Shown one piece after another: positions 11,563-54,188 of a stretch of DNA of 64,000 nucleotides (positions are counted from its first letter, which is position 1; every line of letters begins with the position of its first letter). The notes under the pieces are model-generated. The model was given only the letters and a program-made list of their open reading frames with translations. It was not told the origin of the DNA and made no database searches. Position numbers and translations under genes: made by a program. The stretch comes from a virus, in the IMG/VR virus record IMGVR_UViG_3300032285_003158, positions 1 through 64,000 of that record. One strand, written 5' to 3'.

Positions 11563-12081
11563 ATGTCCAGCACCAATATGTATATGCCTCAGGAAGAATG
11601 GGATACAATGTCCCAATCATTATGTTCTATATTCGATATAGAATATCAACCTAGCATATCAGAACCAATTCAATGTGATAATCAAGGCTCTAATTATAAT
11701 CGAAAAGGCTATAAACACACCGAAGATTCCAAACGCTTAATGTCCGAAAATAGTATCGGACAAATAAGTTGGAATACAGGCAAAACATTACCACCATTAT
11801 CTGATGCACATAAACAGGCATTATCTAATGCATTAAAGGGAAAACCTGCTTGGAATAGGGGTATACCCAATACAATCGAACAGAAAAAGAAAATCTCTGA
11901 ATCATTATCATTGAATAACCCTATGCATAAACCAGATAATTGCAAAAAAGTATCTGATGCATTAAAGGGTCGAGTATTTTCGGCAGAATGGAAGGAAAAT
12001 TTATCCATTGCCGCAAAGGCCCGGTGCGAAAGAAAAAAAATGTTGCAGGCAAACAACGCAAAGTTGACCGGTTTGGTGTGA
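11563..12081 (+). CDS. NUMOD3-repeat protein (homing endonuclease relic)
   Basis: 172 residues. The C-terminal two thirds consists of NUMOD3-type repeats (SDAHKQALSNALKGKPAWNRG, QKKKISESLSLNN, CKKVSDALKGRVFSAEWKENLSIAAKARCE), the DNA-binding modules of GIY-YIG and HNH homing endonucleases. No nuclease motif is visible in the N-terminal 60 residues, so it is either a DNA-binding remnant of a homing endonuclease or a derived regulator. CAGGAG precedes the ATG. Confidence 0.7.
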   Translation: MSSTNMYMPQEEWDTMSQSLCSIFDIEYQPSISEPIQCDNQGSNYNRKGYKHTEDSKRLMSENSIGQISWNTGKTLPPLSDAHKQALSNALKGKPAWNRGIPNTIEQKKKISESLSLNNPMHKPDNCKKVSDALKGRVFSAEWKENLSIAAKARCERKKMLQANNAKLTGLV

Positions 12082-25717: not shown

Positions 25718-25744
25718 ATGAAGTTTGAAATTGGCAAAAATTAA
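25718..25744 (+). pseudogene. 5' stub of a gene cut by the GIY-YIG element
   Basis: A strong ribosome site (AAAGGAAATTATT) and ATG open a frame MKFEIGKN that stops after 8 codons exactly where the minus-strand endonuclease gene begins. MKFEIGKxY is a usual opening of small phage proteins, so this looks like the start of a gene whose rest was replaced or displaced. Confidence 0.5.
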
Positions 25745-26226
25745 ATTTTAGAAAGTCTTTTTTTCTGAGATTCGGATATTTTATGTTTTGTTTCATCGGA
25801 CAGTTTTTTGCCATAATTTGGATTATTTTGACCGATATAACTTCTTCGTGTGAAGACACAAGGTGGAATTTTACCTTTTTTGACTATAGATAAATTCTCT
25901 TTGTGTGAATCTGACATTTTATATCTCCGTCCGGATGCCCCTTCACCACCATCAGTTTTATTTCTAAGTATTCCTGTGTTATTATCTTTTCGCCCGTACC
26001 AACGTATTAAATATCTCTCAATTGCCAATGAACCAATTTCAGTTAAATTGGCTTCAATTATTATAATTTTTGTTTTATTTTTTGGTGGTAGTATTTCATT
26101 TTTAAAATGAAACCAGGCTCTTTTGCCTTGACCTTTGCCAATATAATACGGAGTGTTATCTTCCCGGAGATAAGCATAAACGTAAAAATTTGGCGGAATA
26201 TTTTTTGTATCATATATACTTGACAT
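25741..26226 (-). CDS. GIY-YIG homing endonuclease with NUMOD3 repeats
   Basis: 161 residues. N-terminal GIY-YIG nuclease: FYVYAYLREDNTPYYIGKGQGKRAW (motif variant VYAYL...YYIGKG), then IIEANLTEIGSLAIERYLIRWYGR with the catalytic Glu region. C-terminal NUMOD3 modules (RYKMSDSHKENLS, NPNYGKKLSDETKHKISESQKKR). Free-standing, opposite to all neighbours, which marks it as an insertion. It has a T4-type late promoter upstream (26306-26299). Confidence 0.88.
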   Translation of the reverse strand: MSSIYDTKNIPPNFYVYAYLREDNTPYYIGKGQGKRAWFHFKNEILPPKNKTKIIIIEANLTEIGSLAIERYLIRWYGRKDNNTGILRNKTDGGEGASGRRYKMSDSHKENLSIVKKGKIPPCVFTRRSYIGQNNPNYGKKLSDETKHKISESQKKRLSKI

Positions 26227-28768: not shown

Positions 28769-29533
28769 ATGGCCACTAAAAGAACTCCAGTACAAAAGCG
28801 TGATGATTTTGTTGAGAATGATGACTCGAATAGTAAGCATCTTCCTGTAGTAACAAACTCTCTGAAAATAAAGTTGGATCACCTTAAAACATTTCAAGCA
28901 CTAACAGAAAATCAGCAATTATTCTTTGATGCTTATAAGAGAGGTGATTATTTTATTGGCATGTTTGGTTCTCCTGGTGTGGGTAAAACCTTTCTTGCAG
29001 TCTATCGTGCAATTGAAGAGGTATTAGATAAAAATAATCCATTCAAGCAATTGGTTGTTGTTCGTTCCGCGGTACAGGTGAGGGATCAGGGTTTTGTTCC
29101 AGGTACACTTGATGAAAAGATGGAAATCTACGAACAACCTTATAAAGAAATATGTGAAACACTATTCGGTCGTAAGGATGCTTGGGAAAGACTAAAGGAG
29201 CAATCTCATGCAAGATTTATTTCCACCACAGCAATTCGTGGTATTTCTATTGATGATGCTATTGTTGTGGTCGACGAATCACAATCAATGACTTTTCATG
29301 AATTATCCTCTGTTATTAGCCGAGTTGGTCATAGGTCAAAGATTATCTTCATTGGTGACTTGAAGCAAAATGACTTGATTAAATCAAGAAATGACGTATC
29401 AGGACTCAAAGAGTTTCTGGAAGTTGCTCGTCATATGAGTGAGTTTACTGAAATTACATTTACACCAGATGATATTGTTCGCAGCAGTTTGGTTAAATCC
29501 TTTATTATGGCCTGCGAAAAATTAGGATATTGA
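28769..29533 (+). CDS. phoH: PhoH-like ATPase
   Basis: 254 residues. C-terminal PhoH domain: LTENQQLFFDAYKRGDYFIGMFGSPGVGKTFLA (Walker A GSPGVGKT), VRSAVQVRDQGFVPGTLDEKMEIY, IVVVDESQSMT (Walker B), GHRSKIIFIGDLKQND. A common gene of T4-like aquatic phages, related to host phosphate-regulated PhoH, thought to act on RNA or DNA as helicase/ATPase. Here it sits 1.2 kb upstream of the PlcP-Agt-like pair. AAGGTAAACA precedes the ATG. Confidence 0.9.
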   Translation: MATKRTPVQKRDDFVENDDSNSKHLPVVTNSLKIKLDHLKTFQALTENQQLFFDAYKRGDYFIGMFGSPGVGKTFLAVYRAIEEVLDKNNPFKQLVVVRSAVQVRDQGFVPGTLDEKMEIYEQPYKEICETLFGRKDAWERLKEQSHARFISTTAIRGISIDDAIVVVDESQSMTFHELSSVISRVGHRSKIIFIGDLKQNDLIKSRNDVSGLKEFLEVARHMSEFTEITFTPDDIVRSSLVKSFIMACEKLGY

Positions 29534-30333: not shown

Positions 30334-30399
30334 ATGATCGCATTGTATTTCCTCATTATGTTTGTTGCTTTCATGGGGTTTTTACAACTCACGAAGTAA
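30334..30399 (+). CDS. 21-residue membrane peptide
   Basis: MIALYFLIMFVAFMGFLQLTK: entirely hydrophobic apart from the end, one membrane span. AAAGGAG seven bases before the ATG is a strong ribosome site. Lies between the tRNA-like RNA and the tmRNA. Confidence 0.45.
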   Translation: MIALYFLIMFVAFMGFLQLTK

Positions 30400-30692
30400 G
30401 AAGCTATGATTGTATGAAGTAAGTAGAAATGAGTTCTGGACGCGGAGGCAGTATCCGCCCGGTCCACCAAAAGCATATTCTGTTTGGTATCGGCAGTAGC
30501 CAAAAAGACTTAGTGTGCTTTTGATGGGCCGGAAATAGTTTCGACAGGGCAAAAAGTATATGCACGGACAATCCAGTAGGCGATGACTGTAAATCAAGCA
30601 AACCAAGTAAATGCAAACGAAGATGCATTTTTGATGGCGGCGTAAGCACCATCTGAGTTTTGCCAGTTGAACTTGGAAACAGAATCAACTGG
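30400..30692 (+). ncRNA. ssrA: circularly permuted (two-piece) tmRNA
   Basis: Acceptor piece first: T-arm GCGGA/TCCGC with 7-base loop (30442-30458), acceptor strand CCGGTCC (30459-30465), A, and an encoded CCA (30467-30469). A 56-base spacer follows, then the coding piece starting GGGCCGG (30526-30532), which pairs with CCGGTCC over 7 bp with G3-U70, the alanine identity pair. Next come the D-loop-like TAGTTTCGACAGGGC, a pseudoknot-like CAGT/ACTG region, and the tag frame 30613-30645 coding ANEDAFLMAA-stop, whose stop lies in a GATGG/CCATC hairpin. The last helix is CCAGTTGA/TCAACTGG. The 5' end of the acceptor piece is approximate. Confidence 0.88.
30613..30645 (+). other. tmRNA tag-peptide frame
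   Basis: GCA AAC GAA GAT GCA TTT TTG ATG GCG GCG TAA, i.e. ANEDAFLMAA. It follows the tmRNA tag pattern (A)N(D/E)...(L/M)AA. The hydrophobic C-terminus ending in AA is the ClpXP-type degradation signal. Confidence 0.88.
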
Positions 30693-30696
30693 TACT

Positions 30697-30704
30697 TATA
30701 AATA
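30697..30704 (+). promoter_or_regulatory. T4-type late promoter
   Basis: Exact TATAAATA, ending 5 bases before the ATG of the metallophosphoesterase gene at 30710. Either the mRNA is nearly leaderless or the motif is fortuitous. Confidence 0.5.
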
Positions 30705-30709
30705 AAATC

Positions 30710-31480
30710 ATGGACACAAAAAAATACAAAAGTATCTTCATTTCTGATGTACACTTAGGTACAAAAGACTGCAAGGCCGCATTACTTAATGATTTTTTGA
30801 AAAACAATAGTTGCGAGTCCCTTTATCTTGTCGGTGACATAATCGACGGATGGAGAATCCAACAAAATAAGTGGCGCTGGAAGCAAAGTCATACCAATGT
30901 GATTCGCAGAATTCTCAGTTGTTCCAAAGATGGAACAAAGGTTATTTACATTGCCGGAAACCATGATGAATTTCTGAGGCCACTATTATCTTATAATATA
31001 GGTTTTGGTATGGTAGAGATAGCAAACCAATATGAACACCTAGGCGTTGATGGTAAAAAATACTTGGTAGTACATGGTGATTTATTTGACGGTATCACCA
31101 GACTTGCTCCATGGATATCATTTTTAGGTGACCGCGCATATGATTTTATACTAAGCGCCAACACTAAATTAAACTGGTTGAGACATAGACTAGGTTTTGG
31201 ATATTGGAGTCTCAGTAGATTCTTAAAGCATAAGGTTAAAAAAGCAGTCGATTTTATCTTTCATTTTGAAAAAAATATCACTAACTATTGCATTAAAAGA
31301 GGTTTTGATGGCGTGATTTGTGGACATATACACAATGCAGAAATCAAAAATATTGATGGCATCATGTATATGAATGACGGTGATTGGGTAGAATCCTGTA
31401 CTGCATTAGTTGAACATCATGATGGTTCTTGGGAATTAATTACATGGTCCCAAAATATTAGTGAAGATACTTACGATTGA
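30710..31480 (+). CDS. plcP: PlcP-like metallophosphoesterase (LpxH fold)
   Basis: 256 residues. Calcineurin-type phosphoesterase motifs in order: D13-V-H15 (SDVHLGT), GDIIDGW, GNHDEF, HGDLFD, GHIHNA. Its layout (SDVHLGTxxCKAxxLxDFL, LYLVGDIIDGWR, YIAGNHDEFLRP, LGDRAYDFILSANT) matches the group often annotated 'UDP-2,3-diacylglucosamine diphosphatase', which includes PlcP, a phospholipase C that turns phospholipids into diacylglycerol under phosphate limitation. The glycosyltransferase next door is the usual genetic partner of PlcP, which favours PlcP over LpxH. No signal peptide; acts at the cytoplasmic face. Confidence 0.75.
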   Translation: MDTKKYKSIFISDVHLGTKDCKAALLNDFLKNNSCESLYLVGDIIDGWRIQQNKWRWKQSHTNVIRRILSCSKDGTKVIYIAGNHDEFLRPLLSYNIGFGMVEIANQYEHLGVDGKKYLVVHGDLFDGITRLAPWISFLGDRAYDFILSANTKLNWLRHRLGFGYWSLSRFLKHKVKKAVDFIFHFEKNITNYCIKRGFDGVICGHIHNAEIKNIDGIMYMNDGDWVESCTALVEHHDGSWELITWSQNISEDTYD

Positions 31481-31482
31481 AC

Positions 31483-32496
31483 ATGCGAAAGAAAATTTTA
31501 ATTATAACCGACAATTTACCGGATCAAATAAATGGAGTCGTTACTACATTCAAAAACATTGAAAAATGTGCTAACGCTGATGGGTTTGATATTGTATATC
31601 TTGATCCCGGGCAGTTCTATCATATTGATTGTCCTGGCTACTCTGATGTTAAACTCTCAATCCCGTTTAAAATTGGAAAAAAGATTGAAAGCATATCTCC
31701 GGATTATATACACATTGCTACGGAAGGTCCTATAGGATTTTTCGCAAGGTGTTATTTGGATAGAAAGAATATAAAGTATAACACTAGTTATCATACGAAG
31801 TTTCCTGAGTTCTTAAAGAAATTGTATGGAATTCCGGAGTGCGTTAGTTATGCTTATTTTAGATGGTTTCATAAACATAGTGGAAAAGTATTAACTACCA
31901 CCAATACAATGGTGAAAGAACTGGAAGAACATGGATTTCGTTCAGACATAATTCCATGGACCCGCGGTGTAGATAGAGAGATATTTAATAAAAATCTTCG
32001 AACTGAATATGAAGGTAAAGTTTTATTGAGTGTGGGTAGGGTAAGTAAAGAAAAGGGAATCGAGAATTTCTGTTCTCTCGATTGTTCGCCATGGGTTAAA
32101 AAAATAGTAGTTGGTGATGGTCCATGTCGAGAAGAATTACAATCAAAATATCCAGACGTAAAATTTGTTGGTGTTAAAACTGGTAAAGAACTTGCAGAGT
32201 ATTATGCGAATGCAGATGTGTTTGTGTTTACCTCTAAGGTAGATACTTTTGGCATAGTAATAATAGAAGCATTGTCCGTGGGAACTCCAGTTGCAGCATA
32301 CAAAGTTCCTGGTCCGATTGACATAATAGAACCTGGTGTCAATGGCTATATGGAAGAAATTTTGAATGACCCTTTGAATGATTGTATCAACAGGTGTCTT
32401 TCACTTGACCGAGATGAAGTGGAAAAATCCAGCATCAAATGGTCTTGGCAAGAATGTTGGAATGTATTCAGAGAAAATTTAATTCAATTGAAATAG
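31483..32496 (+). CDS. GT4-family glycosyltransferase (Agt-like)
   Basis: 337 residues. GT-B fold, family 4 marks: N-terminal KKILIITDNLPDQINGVVTTFKNI, middle IPWTRGVDREIF, GKVLLSVGRVSKEKG, and the nucleotide-sugar site DTFGIVIIEALSVGTPVAAYKVPGPIDII. Members near this type transfer a hexose from a nucleotide sugar to diacylglycerol. Directly follows the PlcP-like gene (2 bases between stop and ATG; TTG 31477 is an alternative start). In bacteria plcP and agt are adjacent and replace phospholipids with glycolipids. Substrate here is inferred from context. Confidence 0.75.
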   Translation: MRKKILIITDNLPDQINGVVTTFKNIEKCANADGFDIVYLDPGQFYHIDCPGYSDVKLSIPFKIGKKIESISPDYIHIATEGPIGFFARCYLDRKNIKYNTSYHTKFPEFLKKLYGIPECVSYAYFRWFHKHSGKVLTTTNTMVKELEEHGFRSDIIPWTRGVDREIFNKNLRTEYEGKVLLSVGRVSKEKGIENFCSLDCSPWVKKIVVGDGPCREELQSKYPDVKFVGVKTGKELAEYYANADVFVFTSKVDTFGIVIIEALSVGTPVAAYKVPGPIDIIEPGVNGYMEEILNDPLNDCINRCLSLDRDEVEKSSIKWSWQECWNVFRENLIQLK

Positions 32497-34539: not shown

Positions 34540-35058
34540 ATGAAGAAACTTATTGTTTATTGCCACGGCTACGGCTCAAATCCCAATACGGATAAATTGC
34601 AACAACTCAAAGATGCAGGATTTGATGCATATTGCTTTCATGCATGTATTGATCCTGTGGTCGCTTTTGATAGTATCAGTCGAGAAATCGATTTAGTGCT
34701 ACTGGATTATCTACACCAGGATATTGAACTTATCTTTGTCGGTACTTCTCTTGGTGGCTGGATGGCTTCTAAACTGGCTAAGGCATATGATTGCCGTGCA
34801 GTTATTATCAACCCATCATACGATCCAGAACTATCTCTTGAGAAATATGGAATATTCGAAGAAATTCGGAACAAGTATACTAAGTTGACTATTTCTGAAA
34901 AGTTCCATTACTTCTTCGCTGAAAAGGATGAAGTTCTAGACCATGCAGATTGTCTCGATGCTGTAGTATCTTCGTGTTCTTATGATATGATTCGTGGTGC
35001 AGATCACCGTTTCAACGAACACTTTCATTTGGTTATTGATTATTTGAAGAGCATTTAA
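34540..35058 (+). CDS. YqiA-like alpha/beta-hydrolase esterase
   Basis: 172 residues. Alpha/beta-hydrolase triad: nucleophile elbow GTSLGG (Ser about residue 70), Asp in FFAEKDEVLDHAD, His in GADHRF. HGYGSNPNTDK near the start is the YqiA/UPF0227 opening. Substrate unknown; a small cytosolic esterase. Start lies right after the -10 box of its promoter, with no ribosome site. Confidence 0.8.
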   Translation: MKKLIVYCHGYGSNPNTDKLQQLKDAGFDAYCFHACIDPVVAFDSISREIDLVLLDYLHQDIELIFVGTSLGGWMASKLAKAYDCRAVIINPSYDPELSLEKYGIFEEIRNKYTKLTISEKFHYFFAEKDEVLDHADCLDAVVSSCSYDMIRGADHRFNEHFHLVIDYLKSI

Positions 35059-35621: not shown

Positions 35622-36509
35622 ATGAGTTCATTTGCAAATCTCAAGCGCCAATCCGGCAATCTCGATAAGTTGTCTAAGGCAATCGAGGCACTCAATTCTT
35701 CTTCTGAGGGATCAGACAAGAAAGAAACCTTCTGGCGTCCAGAAGTCGATAAGGCAGGCAATGGTATGGCTACCATCCGTTTCTTGCCGGCATCTCCACA
35801 AGATGGTGATGATTCTCTCCCATGGGTTAAAATCTTCTCCCATGGATTTCAAGGTCCTGGCGGCTGGCTCATCGATAACTGCCTGACAACCAACAACCAA
35901 AAGTGTCCAGTGTGTGAACACAATTCGAGTCTGTGGAATTCAGGCATCGAAGCCAACAAGGACGTAGTTCGTAAGCAAAAGCGTAAGCTTAACTATATTG
36001 CTAACGTCTATATCGTTTCGGATCCTAAGCATCCAGAAAACGAAGGGCAGATCAAGTTGTTCAAGTTCGGTAAGAAAATCTTTGATAAGATTACTGAAGC
36101 AATGAACCCTGCTTTCGAAGATGAAACACCTATCAATCCGTTTGATATGTGGAAGGGTGCTAACTTCAAGTTGAAGATTCGTAAGGTCGAGGGCTATCAG
36201 AACTATGATAAGTCTGAGTTCGAATCTCCAGCACCATTGTCGGCTGATGATGACAAGTTGGAAAAGATTTGGCAGAACCAGCACTCTCTGAAGACCATGA
36301 CAGCCGATAGCGAATTCAAGTCATTCGATGATTTGAAGAGCCGTCTGGATAAGGTCTTGGGTCTTAATGGTGAAGTTCCCGCTGTTCGTACAACCGTAGA
36401 ACAGGCTAAGGCTGCACCACGCAAGCCAGCACCTGAACCTGAGTTGGTAACGACAGAGGAAGAAGATGATCTTAGCTACTTCTCGAAGTTGGCTAATGAT
36501 GATGAGTGA
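35622..36509 (+). CDS. 32: gp32 single-stranded DNA-binding protein
   Basis: 295 residues. Basic B-domain-like N-terminus (FANLKRQSGNLDKLSKAIE), core with FLPASPQDGDDSLPWVKIFSHGFQGPGGWLIDNCLTTNNQKCPVCEHN, where C-x2-C and a following H are zinc ligands as in T4 gp32, and an acidic C-terminal tail (TTEEEDDLSYFSKLANDDE) that recruits other replication proteins. AAAGGAAACTCAA precedes the ATG. Last gene of the rightward block. Confidence 0.95.
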   Translation: MSSFANLKRQSGNLDKLSKAIEALNSSSEGSDKKETFWRPEVDKAGNGMATIRFLPASPQDGDDSLPWVKIFSHGFQGPGGWLIDNCLTTNNQKCPVCEHNSSLWNSGIEANKDVVRKQKRKLNYIANVYIVSDPKHPENEGQIKLFKFGKKIFDKITEAMNPAFEDETPINPFDMWKGANFKLKIRKVEGYQNYDKSEFESPAPLSADDDKLEKIWQNQHSLKTMTADSEFKSFDDLKSRLDKVLGLNGEVPAVRTTVEQAKAAPRKPAPEPELVTTEEEDDLSYFSKLANDDE

Positions 36510-42189: not shown

Positions 42190-43524
42190 TCACATCAAAT
42201 TCTTCACGCCAAAAAGTCGGTAGTAAACATTTGTACGAGCCAGCAACTGACCACCGTTGGTAGTAGTAGCGCCTTGTGCAAACGGATTTGCAACCATGCC
42301 GTAACGAGTCTTGAAACCAATCTTAGGTTGGAATGTGAACTGGTCAACTGCACGAACCATTTGTAGCGGAACGTATGGGCAGTAGAACAGACCAGCATCA
42401 TAAGGTGTCGAACCCTTATAACCGATTGTAACCAATTCTTGGTTGCTTGTGTAGCCACCGAAGTATGGGTCGATGTAGACCTTGATGCGGCGATGTAACA
42501 GACCAGCGAAGGTGTTACCGGTGTCATCAACTTGCAGGTCAGCAGTCAGAGCAGGTGTATACGAAAGAACGCCAGCCATTGCCATTGCGGATGCAACGTC
42601 AGACGAAACGATCAGAACGTTACCCTTACCACGACGAGTTTGCTTTGCAATTACGTTAGCATCACGCTCGATTTGGAAGATAAGACCCTTGAAACGCTCA
42701 ACAGACCAACGACCGTTCGAGTCAGTATCCAAGTCGAAGTAACCAGCAGTAGTTGTACCGTACTGAGCACCTGCAACAGCGCAAGTGTAGATTGTGCGGA
42801 TAACTTCACGGTTGATTTCAGCAAGAATTTCTGTAGACAGAATGTTCGACAATTCTGTTTCAGCGTCAAGACCGTGAATAGCCTTCAAGTCTTGAGCAAG
42901 TTCAAGCGAGTACTCAGCCTTCAGTGCGCGTGATTGAGCAGTTACAGTAACTTTCTCAATTGTGAACGCCATTTGCTGGAATGCATTAGCACCCGAAGCT
43001 TCTGAACCCAAGAATTCTGCAGCAGCAGTAGTCATGCCGATACCAGAAGTGGTAGCGCCAGAAGTTGGGTCTTGGAATGTAGTTGCAATGTCGGATGCAA
43101 CAGTACCCTTTGTACCGTATGGATTACCACGCGAATCAATACCGGAGAAGATGGTATTTGCTTCGTTGTAGAATGCTTCTGAACCAGATTGGTTAGCATA
43201 ACGGGCGCGCATTGCGAAGATCAGACCTGTAGGTCCAGTCATTGGCTGAACGCCAGCAACATCATAAGCAATCAGGTTAGGCAACGAACGGCGAACCAAG
43301 CTGATTAAGATTGGGTCGAAGTTGCTGATACCTGAGCCAGTAACGTTTGTAGGACCCGAATCGGTGATTTCGTTCAACGATTGGCGGTCTTGACGCATTG
43401 CTTGTTGTTGGTTTTCCAAAACAAGAGTCGTAACAGCCTTTTTGTATGGATCGGTAATCGATTCCAATTCTGGATGTTCCAGAACTGGAGCCCATTTCTT
43501 TTGTAGTTCTTCGGTTAAGTACAT
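42190..43524 (-). CDS. 23: gp23 major capsid protein
   Basis: 444 residues. Typical gp23 sequence: MYLTEELQKKWAPVLEHPELESITDPYKKAVTTLVLENQQQAM, DVAGVQPMTGPTGLIFAMRARY, then KYSLELAQDLKAIHGLDAETELSNILSTEILAEINREVIR. HK97-like coat fold. The N-terminal 60-70 residues are expected to be removed by the gp21 protease at a xxE site. AAGGAG precedes the ATG; a strong terminator follows. Confidence 0.96.
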   Translation of the reverse strand: MYLTEELQKKWAPVLEHPELESITDPYKKAVTTLVLENQQQAMRQDRQSLNEITDSGPTNVTGSGISNFDPILISLVRRSLPNLIAYDVAGVQPMTGPTGLIFAMRARYANQSGSEAFYNEANTIFSGIDSRGNPYGTKGTVASDIATTFQDPTSGATTSGIGMTTAAAEFLGSEASGANAFQQMAFTIEKVTVTAQSRALKAEYSLELAQDLKAIHGLDAETELSNILSTEILAEINREVIRTIYTCAVAGAQYGTTTAGYFDLDTDSNGRWSVERFKGLIFQIERDANVIAKQTRRGKGNVLIVSSDVASAMAMAGVLSYTPALTADLQVDDTGNTFAGLLHRRIKVYIDPYFGGYTSNQELVTIGYKGSTPYDAGLFYCPYVPLQMVRAVDQFTFQPKIGFKTRYGMVANPFAQGATTTNGGQLLARTNVYYRLFGVKNLM

Positions 43525-46447: not shown

Positions 46448-46455
46448 TATTTATA
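46448..46455 (-). promoter_or_regulatory. T4-type late promoter
   Basis: Exact TATAAATA on the minus strand, 31 bases before the ATG at 46416 and overlapping the end of the portal gene. Confidence 0.7.
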
Positions 46456-48085
46456 AAATTCTTTTTATCTTGCTGAAGATTGGCTCTTCTTCTTCTTTTT
46501 GTGGTGTGGCATCAGGTGCAGGAGCATCAGCAGCGGCCATGTTCATCATCTGTTGTTGTGCAATACTTGTTGTCACACTAACTGGAACTCCAAGGCCTTC
46601 TTCTTTTTCTTTATCAATTTCCTTTTGCATTTCTGCAATTTCATCATCAGTTAAACGCAGCACATTTCTTTGGATCCAAACTTGCGAGAAGTATCTACCG
46701 GTATAGTTATCAACTTGATCCAACAAGCTTAATCTTTCCTTCATCAACTCAGCTTCTTTGAGTTCGGTGATGTTATTGTCTTTTATGAAGTCGTAATGAA
46801 TATATTCTTTGAATTCTGCCCACTCCTCAGCGGTACAGATACCTTTCAGTACACATTGTACACGCATTGCTTGGTCGAACAAATCAGAAAACTTATTACG
46901 CATTCTGTCAACAAACTTAGAGAACTTTAATTCATCCCTAGTAATTTCCGATGCACGACCAAATGAGAAACCGGAACTGTTTGGATCAATACGCGAAACA
47001 GGAACATTCAATGCTTTATAAAGTTTCTTTTCGAAATATTTAACGTCCTCAAGTTCACCAAGATTCTGTCCGCCTGGCAATGTAGTAATCTCTGTGCCCT
47101 TACCACCTTCTCTACGTGGGAGCCAGAAGTCTTCCATCATGGACATAAACTTACGATCATCACGTACTTCACCGGTGTTTGCATCATACACAAGTTTATT
47201 TTTGTACTTGACCATGATATCACGGAGATACTGTTCAGCCTTTAACTTAGGCAGATTACCAACGTCGATATAAAAAATTCTACGCTCAGGTGCCCTAGAA
47301 ATACGATAGATGACAGTAGCATCTTCAATCATACGCAACTGATTAAGCGGCTTGATTGCTTTGTGTAGGTATGAAAGCACTACAGCACGGCGTGAGTCCA
47401 TCAAACCAGAAACTACAGAAATAATAGAGTCTGTAGTAATGCGAACACCAACTGGACCGAAACTGGAAGAAGAACTGGAAATAACCTTGTCATTATAAAT
47501 GTAATACTCATTTACAAGGTCCATGACCTCGACACCAGTACGTTCATCTTTTTGCTTCTTGACTTCACGAACCTTACGCAATTTTCTAGGATCAATATAG
47601 CGAAGTTCTTTAACACCAGACATTGGATTTTCGCGGTCAATAATGATATGATAGTACATTCTACCATCGATATAATATCTACGGAAAATATCTTGTGCCA
47701 TATTCTTATAATTCAAAAGGCGTAAGACATTTTGAAACTCTGTCTTGATCGCCTTTTTAATTTTTTCTGGCTGTTGCAGATCATCCAAAACAATTTTGAT
47801 AATCTTACCATCATCATCTTGACATATAGCCTCATTAACGATATCATCAATAGCGGATTCGATTTCTGGCTGCATAGCCATTTCGCGGTAACGAGAAATT
47901 AATTCTACGTCATTCTTTGCAGTACCGTCTAAGTCAACATATGTACCATAATATGCGGCAGACGTAATAGTTAATGCGCCGTCATCATTAGACGGTGGCG
48001 TAAACGATTGTTGCACGGAATTGTCTTCTTCAGACTTTTCCCGCGCAATCGTAAAACCAAATAGAGAGAATTTATTTGCTGCCAT
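46451..48085 (-). CDS. 20: gp20 portal protein
   Basis: 544 residues. T4 gp20 blocks: YVDLDGTAKNDVELISRYREMAMQPEIESAIDDIVNEAI, YYHIIIDRENPMSGVKELRYIDPRKLRKVREV, SYLHKAIKPLNQLRMIEDATVIYRISRAPERRIFYIDVGNLPKLKAEQYLRDIMVKYKNKLVYD, and DFWLPRREGGKGTEITTLPGGQNLGELEDVKYFEKKLYKALNVP. Dodecameric DNA gate at the head vertex. Gene ends with an acidic KEEEEPIFSKIKRIL tail. Confidence 0.96.
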   Translation of the reverse strand: MAANKFSLFGFTIAREKSEEDNSVQQSFTPPSNDDGALTITSAAYYGTYVDLDGTAKNDVELISRYREMAMQPEIESAIDDIVNEAICQDDDGKIIKIVLDDLQQPEKIKKAIKTEFQNVLRLLNYKNMAQDIFRRYYIDGRMYYHIIIDRENPMSGVKELRYIDPRKLRKVREVKKQKDERTGVEVMDLVNEYYIYNDKVISSSSSSFGPVGVRITTDSIISVVSGLMDSRRAVVLSYLHKAIKPLNQLRMIEDATVIYRISRAPERRIFYIDVGNLPKLKAEQYLRDIMVKYKNKLVYDANTGEVRDDRKFMSMMEDFWLPRREGGKGTEITTLPGGQNLGELEDVKYFEKKLYKALNVPVSRIDPNSSGFSFGRASEITRDELKFSKFVDRMRNKFSDLFDQAMRVQCVLKGICTAEEWAEFKEYIHYDFIKDNNITELKEAELMKERLSLLDQVDNYTGRYFSQVWIQRNVLRLTDDEIAEMQKEIDKEKEEGLGVPVSVTTSIAQQQMMNMAAADAPAPDATPQKEEEEPIFSKIKRIL

Positions 48086-48755: not shown

Positions 48756-50444
48756 TTAGAATTTACCAACGACTTCAGTGAAATCTACACCAGTTCTAAC
48801 TGCAACAAAATTCAGTTGGATGAAGTTAATTGCTCTTGCTGGCTTGACATAAATGTCACCAACAAACTGATTAGAATCGATAACTTGTGAAGTGTTATTT
48901 GTGGTATCACATACAACACGGAAGTCATAGATGCCACGGCGACCCTGAATGTCTCTTAGGAATGGAGTTACTAATGCAACAAACTGTGCGCGAGTAAACT
49001 CATCATTAAATTCAAACATCGAGAATTTCGAAGCTTGTGCAATTGCCTTTTCTAAGACAATAAACAATCTACGGACGTTAATTCTGTCAAATGCCGAAGG
49101 CTTGTTGAGAAGCGTTTTGTCACCAAATAGCACAGTTCCTTGACCGGGAAATGTCGCAACAGGATTGATACCTAGAGTATAAAGACTGTCTCTATCCGTC
49201 TTGTTTGGATTCCACGCAAGTTTGACAACATTCTTCAGATTACCACGGTTGTAACCTGCTGGTGAATACCATGGATCACGTACAGAATCGGTGTAAACAC
49301 AAAGACCAGCAATATCACCATTCAATGGAACCCAACGATATACGTTGTTGTACTTATCGAACATGTACTTCCAGCCAGAATCAGCAACAGCATATGATGT
49401 TGTACGATTAAGTGCAGTATTCCATGCGGTAATGTTGGTAACTTCACTACCTGATTGGTTTACAACGTTAGCTGACGGAGGCGAAACAAATGTGATACAA
49501 TCTTTGCGAGATGAAGAAATATCAATCGCAGTTTGTTGTACGGCTACTGCAGCATCACCAGCGATAAGCAATGAAACATCAACTTCATCGGCATTCAAGA
49601 ATAAATTAAATGCGGTTTGAAAGTTAGCTGCACTTGGTGTAGAATCTGCACCATTAGCCAATTGAAGTGAAACAGCAGATGCAATAGTTACATAAGTAGT
49701 TGCAGCTAATGGAAGACCCCATGTTGCATTAGTTGTTGCATACGACACTGGACCCATAGCATAAACATATTTTGAATTATTAAAGATATAATTTTTATAG
49801 TAGTTGGAATTTCCTAAAGAGTCATCAGAATCCGAACCTTTAGAAAGGAACTGAAATACTTCCAAAACTGTGCCTTTAGTTCCGGTGAATAAACCACCAG
49901 CATCAATAACAATAACATGCAGTTCATCATTTGACGCACCCGCAGCGGCACCTTGAGCAGAAGTTCCTGGAGCACCAGAGAAATAATTTTTGTATGTCCA
50001 AGCGGAATAAGATGCAGAGTCTGCAACAGATACGAGCAACGAATTACCTAATACACCAGGATATCTAGCAACAAATGCACCATAAGTATCAGCATTATCC
50101 GTGCGTAGATATGTTGCTTCGAATACATCCGGATTGGTAATTTGCAAGTTTGTGCCCGATCCGCACTCAGCATTATATGTAGCCGCACCAACTGCACGAA
50201 CAACTTTAAGATTATTGCCATATGCCAAGAAAGAGGCAGCAGTAAAATAAGATGTATAGTTATTGTTATCTGGATTACCAAATCTTTTGTTCAAATCAGA
50301 TTCACTTGAAACCGTAATTCTTTTGAATGCTGGACCCCATGCAAAACGTCCTGCAAATGCACCGGCTGTAGTAAGTACCGAAGGAACAACTGTTGTTAAG
50401 TCAACTTCAGATACTGTTACGCCTGGAGAGATTGAAAATGCCAT
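48756..50444 (-). CDS. 18: gp18 tail sheath protein
   Basis: 562 residues. Begins MAFSISPGVTVSEVDLTTVVPSVLTTAGAFAGRFAWGPAFKRITVSSESDLNKRFG and ends with the conserved DFRVVCDTTNNTSQVIDSNQFVGDIYVKPARAINFIQLNFVAVRTGVDF, both typical of contractile sheath proteins. CAAGGAG precedes the ATG; late promoter CATAAATA at 50505-50498. Confidence 0.96.
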   Translation of the reverse strand: MAFSISPGVTVSEVDLTTVVPSVLTTAGAFAGRFAWGPAFKRITVSSESDLNKRFGNPDNNNYTSYFTAASFLAYGNNLKVVRAVGAATYNAECGSGTNLQITNPDVFEATYLRTDNADTYGAFVARYPGVLGNSLLVSVADSASYSAWTYKNYFSGAPGTSAQGAAAGASNDELHVIVIDAGGLFTGTKGTVLEVFQFLSKGSDSDDSLGNSNYYKNYIFNNSKYVYAMGPVSYATTNATWGLPLAATTYVTIASAVSLQLANGADSTPSAANFQTAFNLFLNADEVDVSLLIAGDAAVAVQQTAIDISSSRKDCITFVSPPSANVVNQSGSEVTNITAWNTALNRTTSYAVADSGWKYMFDKYNNVYRWVPLNGDIAGLCVYTDSVRDPWYSPAGYNRGNLKNVVKLAWNPNKTDRDSLYTLGINPVATFPGQGTVLFGDKTLLNKPSAFDRINVRRLFIVLEKAIAQASKFSMFEFNDEFTRAQFVALVTPFLRDIQGRRGIYDFRVVCDTTNNTSQVIDSNQFVGDIYVKPARAINFIQLNFVAVRTGVDFTEVVGKF

Positions 50445-51716: not shown

Positions 51717-51894
51717 TTTTAGATGTTCCTCTTAGTATCCGAAATATATATTGTTCGGTCACATTATATTTTTTGGAGTATTCCACACAAAAGGCCCGTT
51801 CATAAGTAAACATTTTACCATTTCGTTTTATCTTACCGATATCAGGATTAATTATCTCAATTTTTTGTTGAAAATCCAAAGAATTCAATATCAA
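51709..51894 (-). CDS. small ORF between the split-intein halves
   Basis: 61 residues (MILNSLDFQQKIEIINPDIGKIKRNGKMFTYERAFCVEYSKKYNVTEQYIFRILRGTSKNV), TTG start overlapping the N-part stop (TTGA) and stop overlapping the C-part start (ATGTTTAA). The C-terminal EYSKKYNVTEQYIFRILRG looks like the HTH recognition part of homing-endonuclease DNA-binding modules. In other fractured intein genes this place is held by a homing endonuclease; this could be its remnant. No nuclease motif is visible. Confidence 0.5.
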   Translation of the reverse strand: MILNSLDFQQKIEIINPDIGKIKRNGKMFTYERAFCVEYSKKYNVTEQYIFRILRGTSKNV

Positions 51895-52775
51895 ACTAAA
51901 TCATACAAATCTCTAATCTTCATTTTTGATGTCATTCCTGTTTCATTATCAAAAATTTCAACAAGGGTATCTCCATCCAAACATTCAAACTCCTGTCTGA
52001 ATTGATGTTCGGAAGTATTCTTGATCGTTTCTTCTTTCCAGATTTCATCTCTACCTGGAACCATTGACCAGTGGATTTCAAACGGCACATAATTGTTTCG
52101 TTTGTTTATGGCATCAGTCCAAATCTTGTAGAACAGATTCATGCCGTTGGGAGTAGAAACAATAATGATCTTCGTTTTGGTACCAGCAGTAATAACTGGA
52201 TAAACTGAAGTAAAGAAGTCTGTAGCAATGTTTGATGGAACGAAAGCAAATTCGTCCAAGAATACAATGTTGAATGAACCAGATCGAGCAGCAGAAGATG
52301 ATGTGGATGATGCTACAAGTTTAGATCCGTTTTCCAGCTCAACAAAACCCTTGTTCCAAGTGACAACACCTTGTTGGAGCCACATAGGTAAATTTTCATA
52401 TGCAAGTTGATACTTACCTAGAATATCCCGTGAGGTTTGTCCGCGGTTTGCCAAGATAGCAATGTTCTGAGAGTCTTGAAACAATGAAGCCCAAAGAAGA
52501 TATGCAACTGTTGTTGTTGTCTTACCAACCTGACGAGGACATTTTGTGATAACAAATCTATTCTTATGAAAGATTCGAATCATGTCCTCCTGGAAATCAT
52601 ACATCTTGAAAGGAACAAGACCATCATCTAGTGTGATAATCTTTACATACTTGGCAAAGTATATTGGATCTTGAGCGCACTTTACATACTCATCGATCTG
52701 TTCTTGTGTATACTGTACATCAACACCAACACGTTTGAGTAAATTATTGTCACGGTACGTGTCTTTACTACTCAT
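51891..52775 (-). CDS. 17: gp17 terminase N-terminal part with N-intein
   Basis: 294 residues. N-extein 264 residues: ATPase of the large terminase with Walker A CPRQVGKTTTT, Walker B IVFLDEFAFV and coupling motif VSTPNG. It ends at HQFRQEFE. Then Cys265 opens a 30-residue N-intein: CLDGDTLVEIFDNETGMTSKMKIRDLYDLV (block A pattern C-x-x-G-D-T-L-V-E). The insertion site, between QEFE and (T)EFLGS, is in the conserved TerL core and is the same kind of place as in AceL-TerL. Confidence 0.92.
   Translation of the reverse strand: MSSKDTYRDNNLLKRVGVDVQYTQEQIDEYVKCAQDPIYFAKYVKIITLDDGLVPFKMYDFQEDMIRIFHKNRFVITKCPRQVGKTTTTVAYLLWASLFQDSQNIAILANRGQTSRDILGKYQLAYENLPMWLQQGVVTWNKGFVELENGSKLVASSTSSSAARSGSFNIVFLDEFAFVPSNIATDFFTSVYPVITAGTKTKIIIVSTPNGMNLFYKIWTDAINKRNNYVPFEIHWSMVPGRDEIWKEETIKNTSEHQFRQEFECLDGDTLVEIFDNETGMTSKMKIRDLYDLV
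51894..51983 (-). other. N-intein of atypically split TerL intein
   Basis: 30 residues from the splice-junction Cys to the stop. Much shorter than ordinary split N-inteins (about 100 residues), close to the 25-residue N-fragment of AceL-TerL. Confidence 0.85.
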
Positions 52776-53198: not shown

Positions 53199-54188
53199 TT
53201 ATATATTAGGATATTCAGTAATGGTTGTGGTATATGTATATGCACTATTTGGTGTGGCATTTGTTGGATTAGGAACAATATTCACTTTTGCTAGTTGTAA
53301 TGGAACAACGGCATAAGAAGTAAAGGTATATTTTGCATTACTCTGTGCGCCGTAGATTGGCATACTTGAAACAAAATTACCTTGTATTTCAGTAACATGT
53401 AACACATTATTTGAATAATACAAAACCTTTGCTGTGGCCGTTGCTGTTGCTAAAGAATATCCTTGATAAACAATTTCACCTTCTGTATATGTTCCAGTGC
53501 CGGTTGCATTCATATTAAATGCAACGTTATCATGTTCCGACACACCACTCAATATATTTGTAATCGAATTTCTGATTATGTTTACAGGAGATGTTGCACC
53601 AAAAATGAAACCTTTTACGGTAAAATTTAAAGTCCAAATAACAATTCTAGGATCAGAATCTCTGTTACCCTCATCTTGAACAGAATAATCGATATTATTT
53701 AAAATGATAGGAACTTCTTTAACAACACCCATCTCAGGAATAAGATTTAACTTAATTGTATAATCTGGTGTGAAAAAAGGAAGTATATGTTCTATAACTT
53801 GATTACCATCTTCAATATTTCGTACATAAAGGTACAATGAAAAATCAAAATCGTATGGTACAGGATTGTATTGTGAAATTACTCCACCCGATGTTGTACT
53901 AGCAAAACTTTTTTGATTCGTATTCAGTTTGCGAGAAGTATCATATGTTATACCATTCAAAATATATGACAATCTAGGCAATGTCATCTGAACTTTTTTA
54001 TCAAGATCAGGATCGCCTTGCAAACGCATTACATACATTTCTTTTGATGCATATGCAATTGGGACTAAGAATCTTTCTTGTTCCGTCAAGTCTTCATTGT
54101 ACCGAACTAAGGTGATGTTATTAAACAGATCACCAAATGCTACGGTAAGTTTTCGTATAATTCTATTATATGTGGGAGTTGACATCAA
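53199..54188 (-). CDS. 15: gp15 tail completion/sheath stabiliser protein
   Basis: 329 residues. STPTYNRIIRKLTVAFGDLFNNITLVRYNEDLTEQERFLVPIAYASKEMYVMRLQGDPDLDKKVQMTLPRLSYILNGITYD matches T4 gp15, the hexamer that caps the tail and joins it to the neck. The C-terminal 100 residues (GTGTYTEGEIVYQGYSLATATATAKVLYYS...) hold a small repeat domain also seen in gp14 here. Overlaps gp14 by 4 bases. Confidence 0.88.
   Translation of the reverse strand: MMSTPTYNRIIRKLTVAFGDLFNNITLVRYNEDLTEQERFLVPIAYASKEMYVMRLQGDPDLDKKVQMTLPRLSYILNGITYDTSRKLNTNQKSFASTTSGGVISQYNPVPYDFDFSLYLYVRNIEDGNQVIEHILPFFTPDYTIKLNLIPEMGVVKEVPIILNNIDYSVQDEGNRDSDPRIVIWTLNFTVKGFIFGATSPVNIIRNSITNILSGVSEHDNVAFNMNATGTGTYTEGEIVYQGYSLATATATAKVLYYSNNVLHVTEIQGNFVSSMPIYGAQSNAKYTFTSYAVVPLQLAKVNIVPNPTNATPNSAYTYTTTITEYPNI

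Follow-up and report, generated by a model that had tools for sequence, protein, structure and literature searches.

A phosphoesterase gene and a glycosyltransferase gene standing side by side in a T4-like phage genome probably make up, judging by their sequences, a phage-encoded PlcP-Agt lipid-remodelling module, which would convert phospholipid to diacylglycerol and then to glycolipid and so free phosphorus for phage DNA. Bacteria short of phosphate use plcP and agt to convert the phospholipids of their membranes into glycolipids that contain no phosphate. Most likely, the phage pair serves to salvage phosphorus and to replace the lost phospholipids by glycolipids, probably in the late phase of infection. 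Family identity, diagnostic residues, synteny, neighbouring genes, Pho-box enrichment and purifying selection were computed here; the activity, substrates, sugar, timing and benefit of the pair we infer.

The locus and its virus

The DNA analysed (the window, 64,000 nucleotides) makes up the greater part of a viral contig of 65.8 kb that has T4-type genes. The phosphoesterase (P0001, 256 aa), recognised as a PlcP-like metallophosphoesterase by Pfam, identity, tree and residues, is encoded on the plus strand at 30710..31480, from an ATG at 30710 to a TGA at 31478-31480. The putative Agt-like diacylglycerol glycosyltransferase (GT4, P0002, 337 aa), recognised by PF00534/PF13439, residues and clade, follows on the same strand at 31483..32496. 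Its ATG at 31483 lies two bases past the stop of the first gene, and translation could also begin at an in-frame TTG at 31477. Both reading frames are intact and arranged as the original prediction had described them. Compared with a near relative (L006), both genes are under purifying selection, with dN 0.05/dS 0.59 for the phosphoesterase and dN 0.07/dS 0.48 for the GT4.

The next gene after the GT4 encodes a cell-wall hydrolase (PF07486, 32532-33077). T4-type genes encode gp32 (35622-36509), the major head protein (42190-43524), the portal (46451-48085), the tail sheath (48756-50444), the terminase (51891-52775) and the tail sheath stabiliser (53199-54188). The contig is that of a T4-like phage, a virus of bacteria, and host contamination was ruled out because the T4-type head, portal and tail genes are present. 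Relatives of the tail sheath among isolates were those of the Stenotrophomonas phage DLP6, the pelagiphage Mosig, the Sinorhizobium phage phiM12 and the Methylophilales phage Melnitz, none of which reached 60% identity, and no isolated phage in the collection searched matched the locus at the DNA level. Elsewhere in the window, two ORFs carrying NUMOD3 motifs of the kind found in homing endonucleases (25741-26226, minus strand; 11563-12081, plus strand), and one for a UPF0227 (YqiA-like) alpha/beta hydrolase (34540-35058, plus strand) were observed.

Identity of the phosphoesterase

The window phosphoesterase matched Metallophos (PF00149) with 49.6 bits, and the calcineurin-type metal-binding residues (DxH, GD, GNH, H, GHxH) were found at D13, H15, D43, N84, H85, H122, H206 and H208. 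These ligands are kept across 157 viral and 80 bacterial sequences, D13/H15 being gapped in one viral row. The hallmark of a PlcP phospholipase C is the Mn-dependent hydrolysis of PE/PG/PC to diacylglycerol. The window protein is 53.0% identical to the PA3219-locus protein, in the copy carried by a P. aeruginosa plasmid, and 49% identical to the S. meliloti homologue; the latter two share 44.7% identity. On the plasmid the gene is found in a neighbourhood of a CsaA-like tRNA-binding protein, the phosphoesterase, a glycosyltransferase and an adenylate cyclase, which we take, from this gene order and that of PAO1, to be the PA3217-PA3222 region of the chromosome, captured as a copy; on the same grounds, the plasmid phosphoesterase is presumably PlcP PA3219 and the glycosyltransferase Agt1 PA3218. 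This apparent copy of the chromosomal plcP-agt1 neighbourhood on P. aeruginosa plasmids (L171, NZ_CP137508.1) is an observation in its own right. PA3219 (PlcP) and PA3218 (Agt1) have been validated experimentally, and validated PlcPs are 46-47% identical to each other (PMC8528852). The phage protein is thus as close to a validated-locus PlcP as validated PlcPs are to one another.

The original prediction had allowed for LpxH activity, and two observations might appear to favour it: relatives of the protein are annotated in databases as UDP-2,3-diacylglucosamine hydrolase, and LpxH, a member of the same metallophosphoesterase superfamily, is the closest solved fold. The fold search was informative at superfamily level only (TM 0.55 to LpxH), with a helical insert poorly modelled. 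Identity to LpxH, however, was 19-21%, and the score against the LpxH model TIGR01854 was 43.3 bits, whereas the cut-off is 190.35; against two curated LpxH models the scores were 43 and 50 bits, with cut-offs of 190 and 134. GNHD was present in all 157 viral and 80 bacterial PlcP-type sequences, and the window motif is GNHDE where LpxH has GNRDF. D46, W57, Y144, K173, N222 and E228 are common to PlcP and the viral phosphoesterases and absent from LpxH. In a 55-row tree LpxH was split from the PlcP-type sequences at 100*; the bacterial PlcPs formed a single group (97*), with the viral phosphoesterases outside it. A separate LpxH above the cut-off was encoded by 10 of 12 bacterial genomes with PlcP. 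The score below the cut-off, the residues, the tree split and the separate LpxH together ruled out LpxH, and the window phosphoesterase is, on its predicted family membership, a PlcP, as had been proposed.

Identity of the glycosyltransferase

The window GT4 matched Glycos_transf_1 (PF00534, 76.9 bits) and Glyco_transf_4 (PF13439, 44.8 bits). Its predicted structure was a confident GT-B fold (pLDDT 91.6), and the fold search identified a generic GT4, nearest to the MshA/BshA/PimA type. What defines an Agt is the movement of Glc, Gal or GlcA from a UDP-sugar to diacylglycerol. Mutagenesis of the SAR11 Agt, GTcp, showed G16, G82, G85, H104, R163, R190, K195, D256, T257, F258, G259, E264 and W320 to be essential (PMC8231724). 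Assigned by motif and position, all 13 of these, and 14 of 14 positions when T162 is included, were matched in the window GT4 by G18, G82, G85, H104, T160, R161, R186, K191, D254, T255, F256, G257, E262 and W322. The equivalent residues were nearly all invariant across 116 viral GT4s; the catalytic Asp (D256) was replaced by Glu in 39 of them, and the window enzyme has Asp at this position.

The viral GT4s formed one clade (98*) that adjoined plcP-adjacent bacterial GT4s including PA3218, although this join (83) was unstarred. WaaG, WaaB, WcaC, WcaI and WcaL of E. coli fell outside the Agt-containing GT4 group, and by this placement an LPS or capsule enzyme, the other alternative attached to the original prediction, was ruled out at family level. 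Among 80 bacterial PlcP relatives, a GT4 was encoded within 900 nt downstream in 53. The window GT4 is accordingly classed, by clade and residues, as a putative Agt-like enzyme. The viral enzymes share only some 36% of their residues with PA3218 and 36-44% with the plcP-adjacent bacterial GT4s, and the acceptor could therefore have changed.

Distribution and exchange of the second enzyme

The pair is no single case; it belongs to a very widespread cassette in which the second enzyme is exchangeable. Relatives of the phosphoesterase were detected in at least 598 IMG/VR stretches and, by an independent scan, relatives of the GT4 in at least 250. A survey of genome context, suggested with the original prediction, placed the phosphoesterase gene upstream of the GT4 in every one of the 79 viral GT4 loci whose upstream sequence was long enough, so that the adjacency is not a matter of chance. 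In the best 80 of the at least 598 phosphoesterase loci the downstream gene was a GT4 in 36 and a GT2 in 40; three ended too soon and one had neither. The GT2, of about 237 aa, takes the place of the GT4 in L013, L023, L045 and 37 other loci, and it was not found beside plcP in 80 bacterial loci. It is nearest to TIGR04283, under the cut-off of that model, and matches Glyco_transf_21 above the cut-off (31.1 bits, cut-off 21.7 bits). At least 15 swaps between GT4 and GT2 were counted on a phosphoesterase tree with 87 viral and 3 bacterial members, and starred branches force at least 5 of them. Thus the phosphoesterase is the constant part and the second enzyme the exchangeable one, and GT2 has apparently replaced GT4 many times in phages.

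A T4 capsid family was found in 13 of 50 larger carrier records, some above 350 kb, and several large carriers without this family have other phage hallmarks. A fatty-acid desaturase was encoded by 17 of 50 carrier contigs and near the GT4 in 11 of 80 loci; it sometimes adjoins the pair (L312:8947-9654 on the minus strand, L057 and others), which may represent a wider membrane-tailoring set. Several further neighbours were recorded. The gene of an ATP-grasp ligase of the RimK family (TIGR00768, 216 bits) separates plcP from the GT4 gene at L011:1970-2857, L043:8904-9791 and L076:8895-9782. An Mpo1-like protein, under the Pfam cut-off, follows agt in one phage (L312:8345-8950, plus strand), and ORFs similar to it lie near plcP in Pseudomonas loci (L091, L136). 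The record MT836169.1 (L003), named 'Bacteriophage sp.', has a plcP-like gene whose downstream neighbour encodes a glycosyltransferase of a different kind; its phosphoesterase is 40% identical, and it was not counted as a phage case, being bacterial-looking with tyrosyl-tRNA synthetase-, ppk- and ppx-like ORFs.

Phosphorus link in the relatives

The original prediction had pointed to phoH at a distance of 1.2 kb. The gene is indeed there (28769-29533; PF02562, 135.5 bits) and ends 1.18 kb upstream of the pair, but it is weak evidence for a phosphate role and its proximity was set aside because phoH is common in phages. PstS was encoded by 5 of the 50 carrier contigs surveyed, many of which are fragments, and its gene invariably shares the strand of the pair and lies no more than about 5 kb away from it. 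It directly follows the GT4 in G046 and G047 and is upstream of the pair in G036, G050 and G060. The phosphate-selective porin Porin_O_P (PF07396) lies between PstS and the pair in G036 and G060, and these porins are the only two PF07396 members among the 50 carrier records. The PstS carriers have phage hallmarks in the form of a terminase (G050), a baseplate wedge (G047), a phage DNA polymerase (G060) and a tail fibre (G036); none was detected on G046 by the families tried.

Upstream of the viral plcP genes a perfect YTGTNAY-N4-YTGTNAY repeat was present in 18 of 114 distinct regions, compared with 0.04 expected in shuffles, and it occurs in 0.3% of random segments. Near-perfect repeats (11 or 12 of 12 positions) were found in 32 of the 114 regions, with 0.6 expected; 30 of the 32 are located at −33 to −51 from the plcP start, and most are followed by TAAATA. 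The repeat has the layout of a Pho box and would presumably be bound by PhoB. PstS, the phosphate porin and the Pho boxes in relatives support the phosphorus link of the pair that had been anticipated. The occasional position of the relatives beside phosphate-uptake genes suggests that host membranes serve these viruses as a phosphorus store. With modest confidence, the cassette may be regarded as a phosphorus-salvage module that responds to host PhoB and is carried by many diverse aquatic phages, T4-like ones as well as others, with genomes of as much as 367 kb. Its core would be plcP with either a GT4 or a GT2 as interchangeable partner, joined in some phages by pstS, a phosphate porin and a fatty-acid desaturase. 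It would change the membrane of the infected cell from phospholipid to glycolipid, and where the water is low in phosphate, host membranes would be a major source of phosphorus for phage DNA.

Upstream elements of the window copy

The window copy is differently equipped. No Pho box was found upstream of its plcP, and no pstS was noted near the pair. Instead, a T4-type late-promoter-like element, TATAAATA, lies at 30697..30704 on the plus strand, 5 nt before the plcP-like start codon. In total the window has five TATAAATA copies, about as many as chance would give, but all five are located 6-73 nt ahead of an ORF start on their own strand, whereas 4.6% of positions are within 75 nt of one. The other four precede minus-strand ORFs, three of these in the structural block. 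Since all five copies stand before same-strand ORF starts, late expression is likely, and the window pair is more likely a late-class transcript from the TATAAATA promoter than a Pho-induced one.

The gap of about 500 bp before the pair contains a permuted two-piece tmRNA that had been missed in the original prediction. It lies directly upstream of plcP at 30356-30710 on the plus strand (RF04321 122 bits, RF01850 89.5 bits), and its tag frame reads ANEDAFLMAA before a stop. Of 11 related loci, 7 also have a permuted tmRNA, which in several immediately precedes plcP. Two-piece tmRNAs in phages are already known (PMC9004378). The match to beta_tmRNA is a hint that the host may be a betaproteobacterium.

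Proposed role and alternatives

We propose that the PlcP, a metal-dependent phospholipase C, would cut the phosphate-bearing head group off host glycerophospholipids and leave diacylglycerol. With a UDP-sugar as donor, the GT4 would then glycosylate the diacylglycerol, the sugar probably being glucose, galactose or glucuronate, so that the membrane would remain a bilayer and diacylglycerol would not build up. The released phospho-alcohol would be broken down to provide phosphate for phage DNA synthesis. The original prediction had the pair freeing both phosphate and diacylglycerol, but PlcP releases a phospho-alcohol and not free phosphate, so that any phosphate gain requires further enzymes. 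In the relatives the position beside PstS and the phosphate porin, under Pho boxes, makes control by the host probable, and the PhoR/PhoB system would turn on their module in phosphate-starved cells. In the window phage the module would more likely belong to the late class, driven from the TATAAATA promoter.

The same two enzymes might instead change the charge or make-up of the membrane in order to block superinfection, tune lysis or protect the cell, with the phosphorus gain as a by-product. We consider this unlikely, though it is the likeliest of the alternatives: the TATAAATA element and the following cell-wall hydrolase suggest late, lysis-time expression in the window phage, the window copy is without a Pho box, and the desaturase of 17 of the 50 carrier contigs fits membrane tailoring. 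Against these observations, the Pho boxes of 32 of the 114 relatives and the clustering with pstS and the phosphate porin point to phosphorus. Doubtful to a greater degree is a PlcP acting as proposed beside a viral GT4 (and GT2) with an acceptor other than diacylglycerol, only phospholipid breakdown being conserved. The repeated exchange of GT4 and GT2, the resemblance of the GT2 to TIGR04283 below its cut-off and a plcP in phage Mosig with no glycosyltransferase annotated beside it would agree with such a division; yet the DAG- and sugar-binding residues of GTcp are all kept (H104, R163, W320), the GT2 match to Glyco_transf_21 is above its cut-off, and cellular plcP is likewise followed by agt or by other glycolipid glycosyltransferases (PMC4796936).

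Very improbable, finally, is a pair that remodels lipid A or a surface polysaccharide by means of an LpxH-type hydrolase and an LPS or capsule GT4. The database names and the closest solved fold are what speak for it, and the profile scores, GNHDE and the PlcP-shared residues, the 100* split, the separate LpxH in PlcP genomes and the distance of the GT4 from WaaG/WaaB/WcaC/I/L in the tree speak against it, so that this reading is already largely refuted. Phosphorus salvage with glycolipid replacement is hence retained as the preferred role.

Relation to known systems and significance

The biochemistry of the cellular PlcP-Agt system has been described (PMC4796936, PMC8231724, PMC8528852, PMC9239053). 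The phage pair resembles the bacterial operons of S. meliloti, Phaeobacter MED193, SAR11 HTCC7211, P. aeruginosa (PA3219-PA3218) and Methylosinus OB3b in gene order, adjacency, catalytic residues and family trees, and in the Pho boxes of viral relatives. It differs from them in being borne by T4-like and other large phages, in phosphoesterase and GT4 groups separate from the sampled cellular ones, in a second gene that is exchangeable with a GT2, and in a window copy with a TATAAATA element and without a Pho box. The Pelagibacter phage Mosig EXVC030M, which also has a related tail sheath, encodes a PlcP-like protein (Mosig_00120) that is 51% identical. Its gene adjoins, divergently, one annotated as a phosphate ABC transporter, but it is itself annotated as a putative UDP-2,3-diacylglucosamine hydrolase. 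The pair is like the pstS/phoA-type auxiliary metabolic genes of cyanophages under host PhoB in that these are phage genes of phosphorus supply with, in the relatives, Pho-box-like control; unlike them, it would act on host membrane phospholipids and not on external phosphate.

The literature search covered open-access papers, none of which was found to describe a plcP-agt pair in a phage, so that this absence is no proof. Many kinds of phage phosphorus-acquisition genes are named in the main text of PMC10987575, and plcP and agt are not among them. At least one large catalogue of auxiliary metabolic genes drops contigs with glycosyltransferases (PMC11360552); this, and the naming of PlcP in databases as 'UDP-2,3-diacylglucosamine hydrolase', keeps these common genes hidden. 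Viral-fraction transcripts from Lake Baikal include lpxH and a stearoyl-CoA desaturase (PMC9611531), which could be the plcP cassette under the wrong name that it usually bears.

In the surveyed literature, the phosphorus genes named for phages act on external phosphorus, by uptake or mineralisation, or regulate how phosphorus is used. The phage described here would be the first equipped to strip phosphorus from the membrane lipids of its host and to refill the membrane with sugar lipids, and it would tie viral infection to membrane lipid remodelling, a main low-phosphate response of aquatic bacteria.
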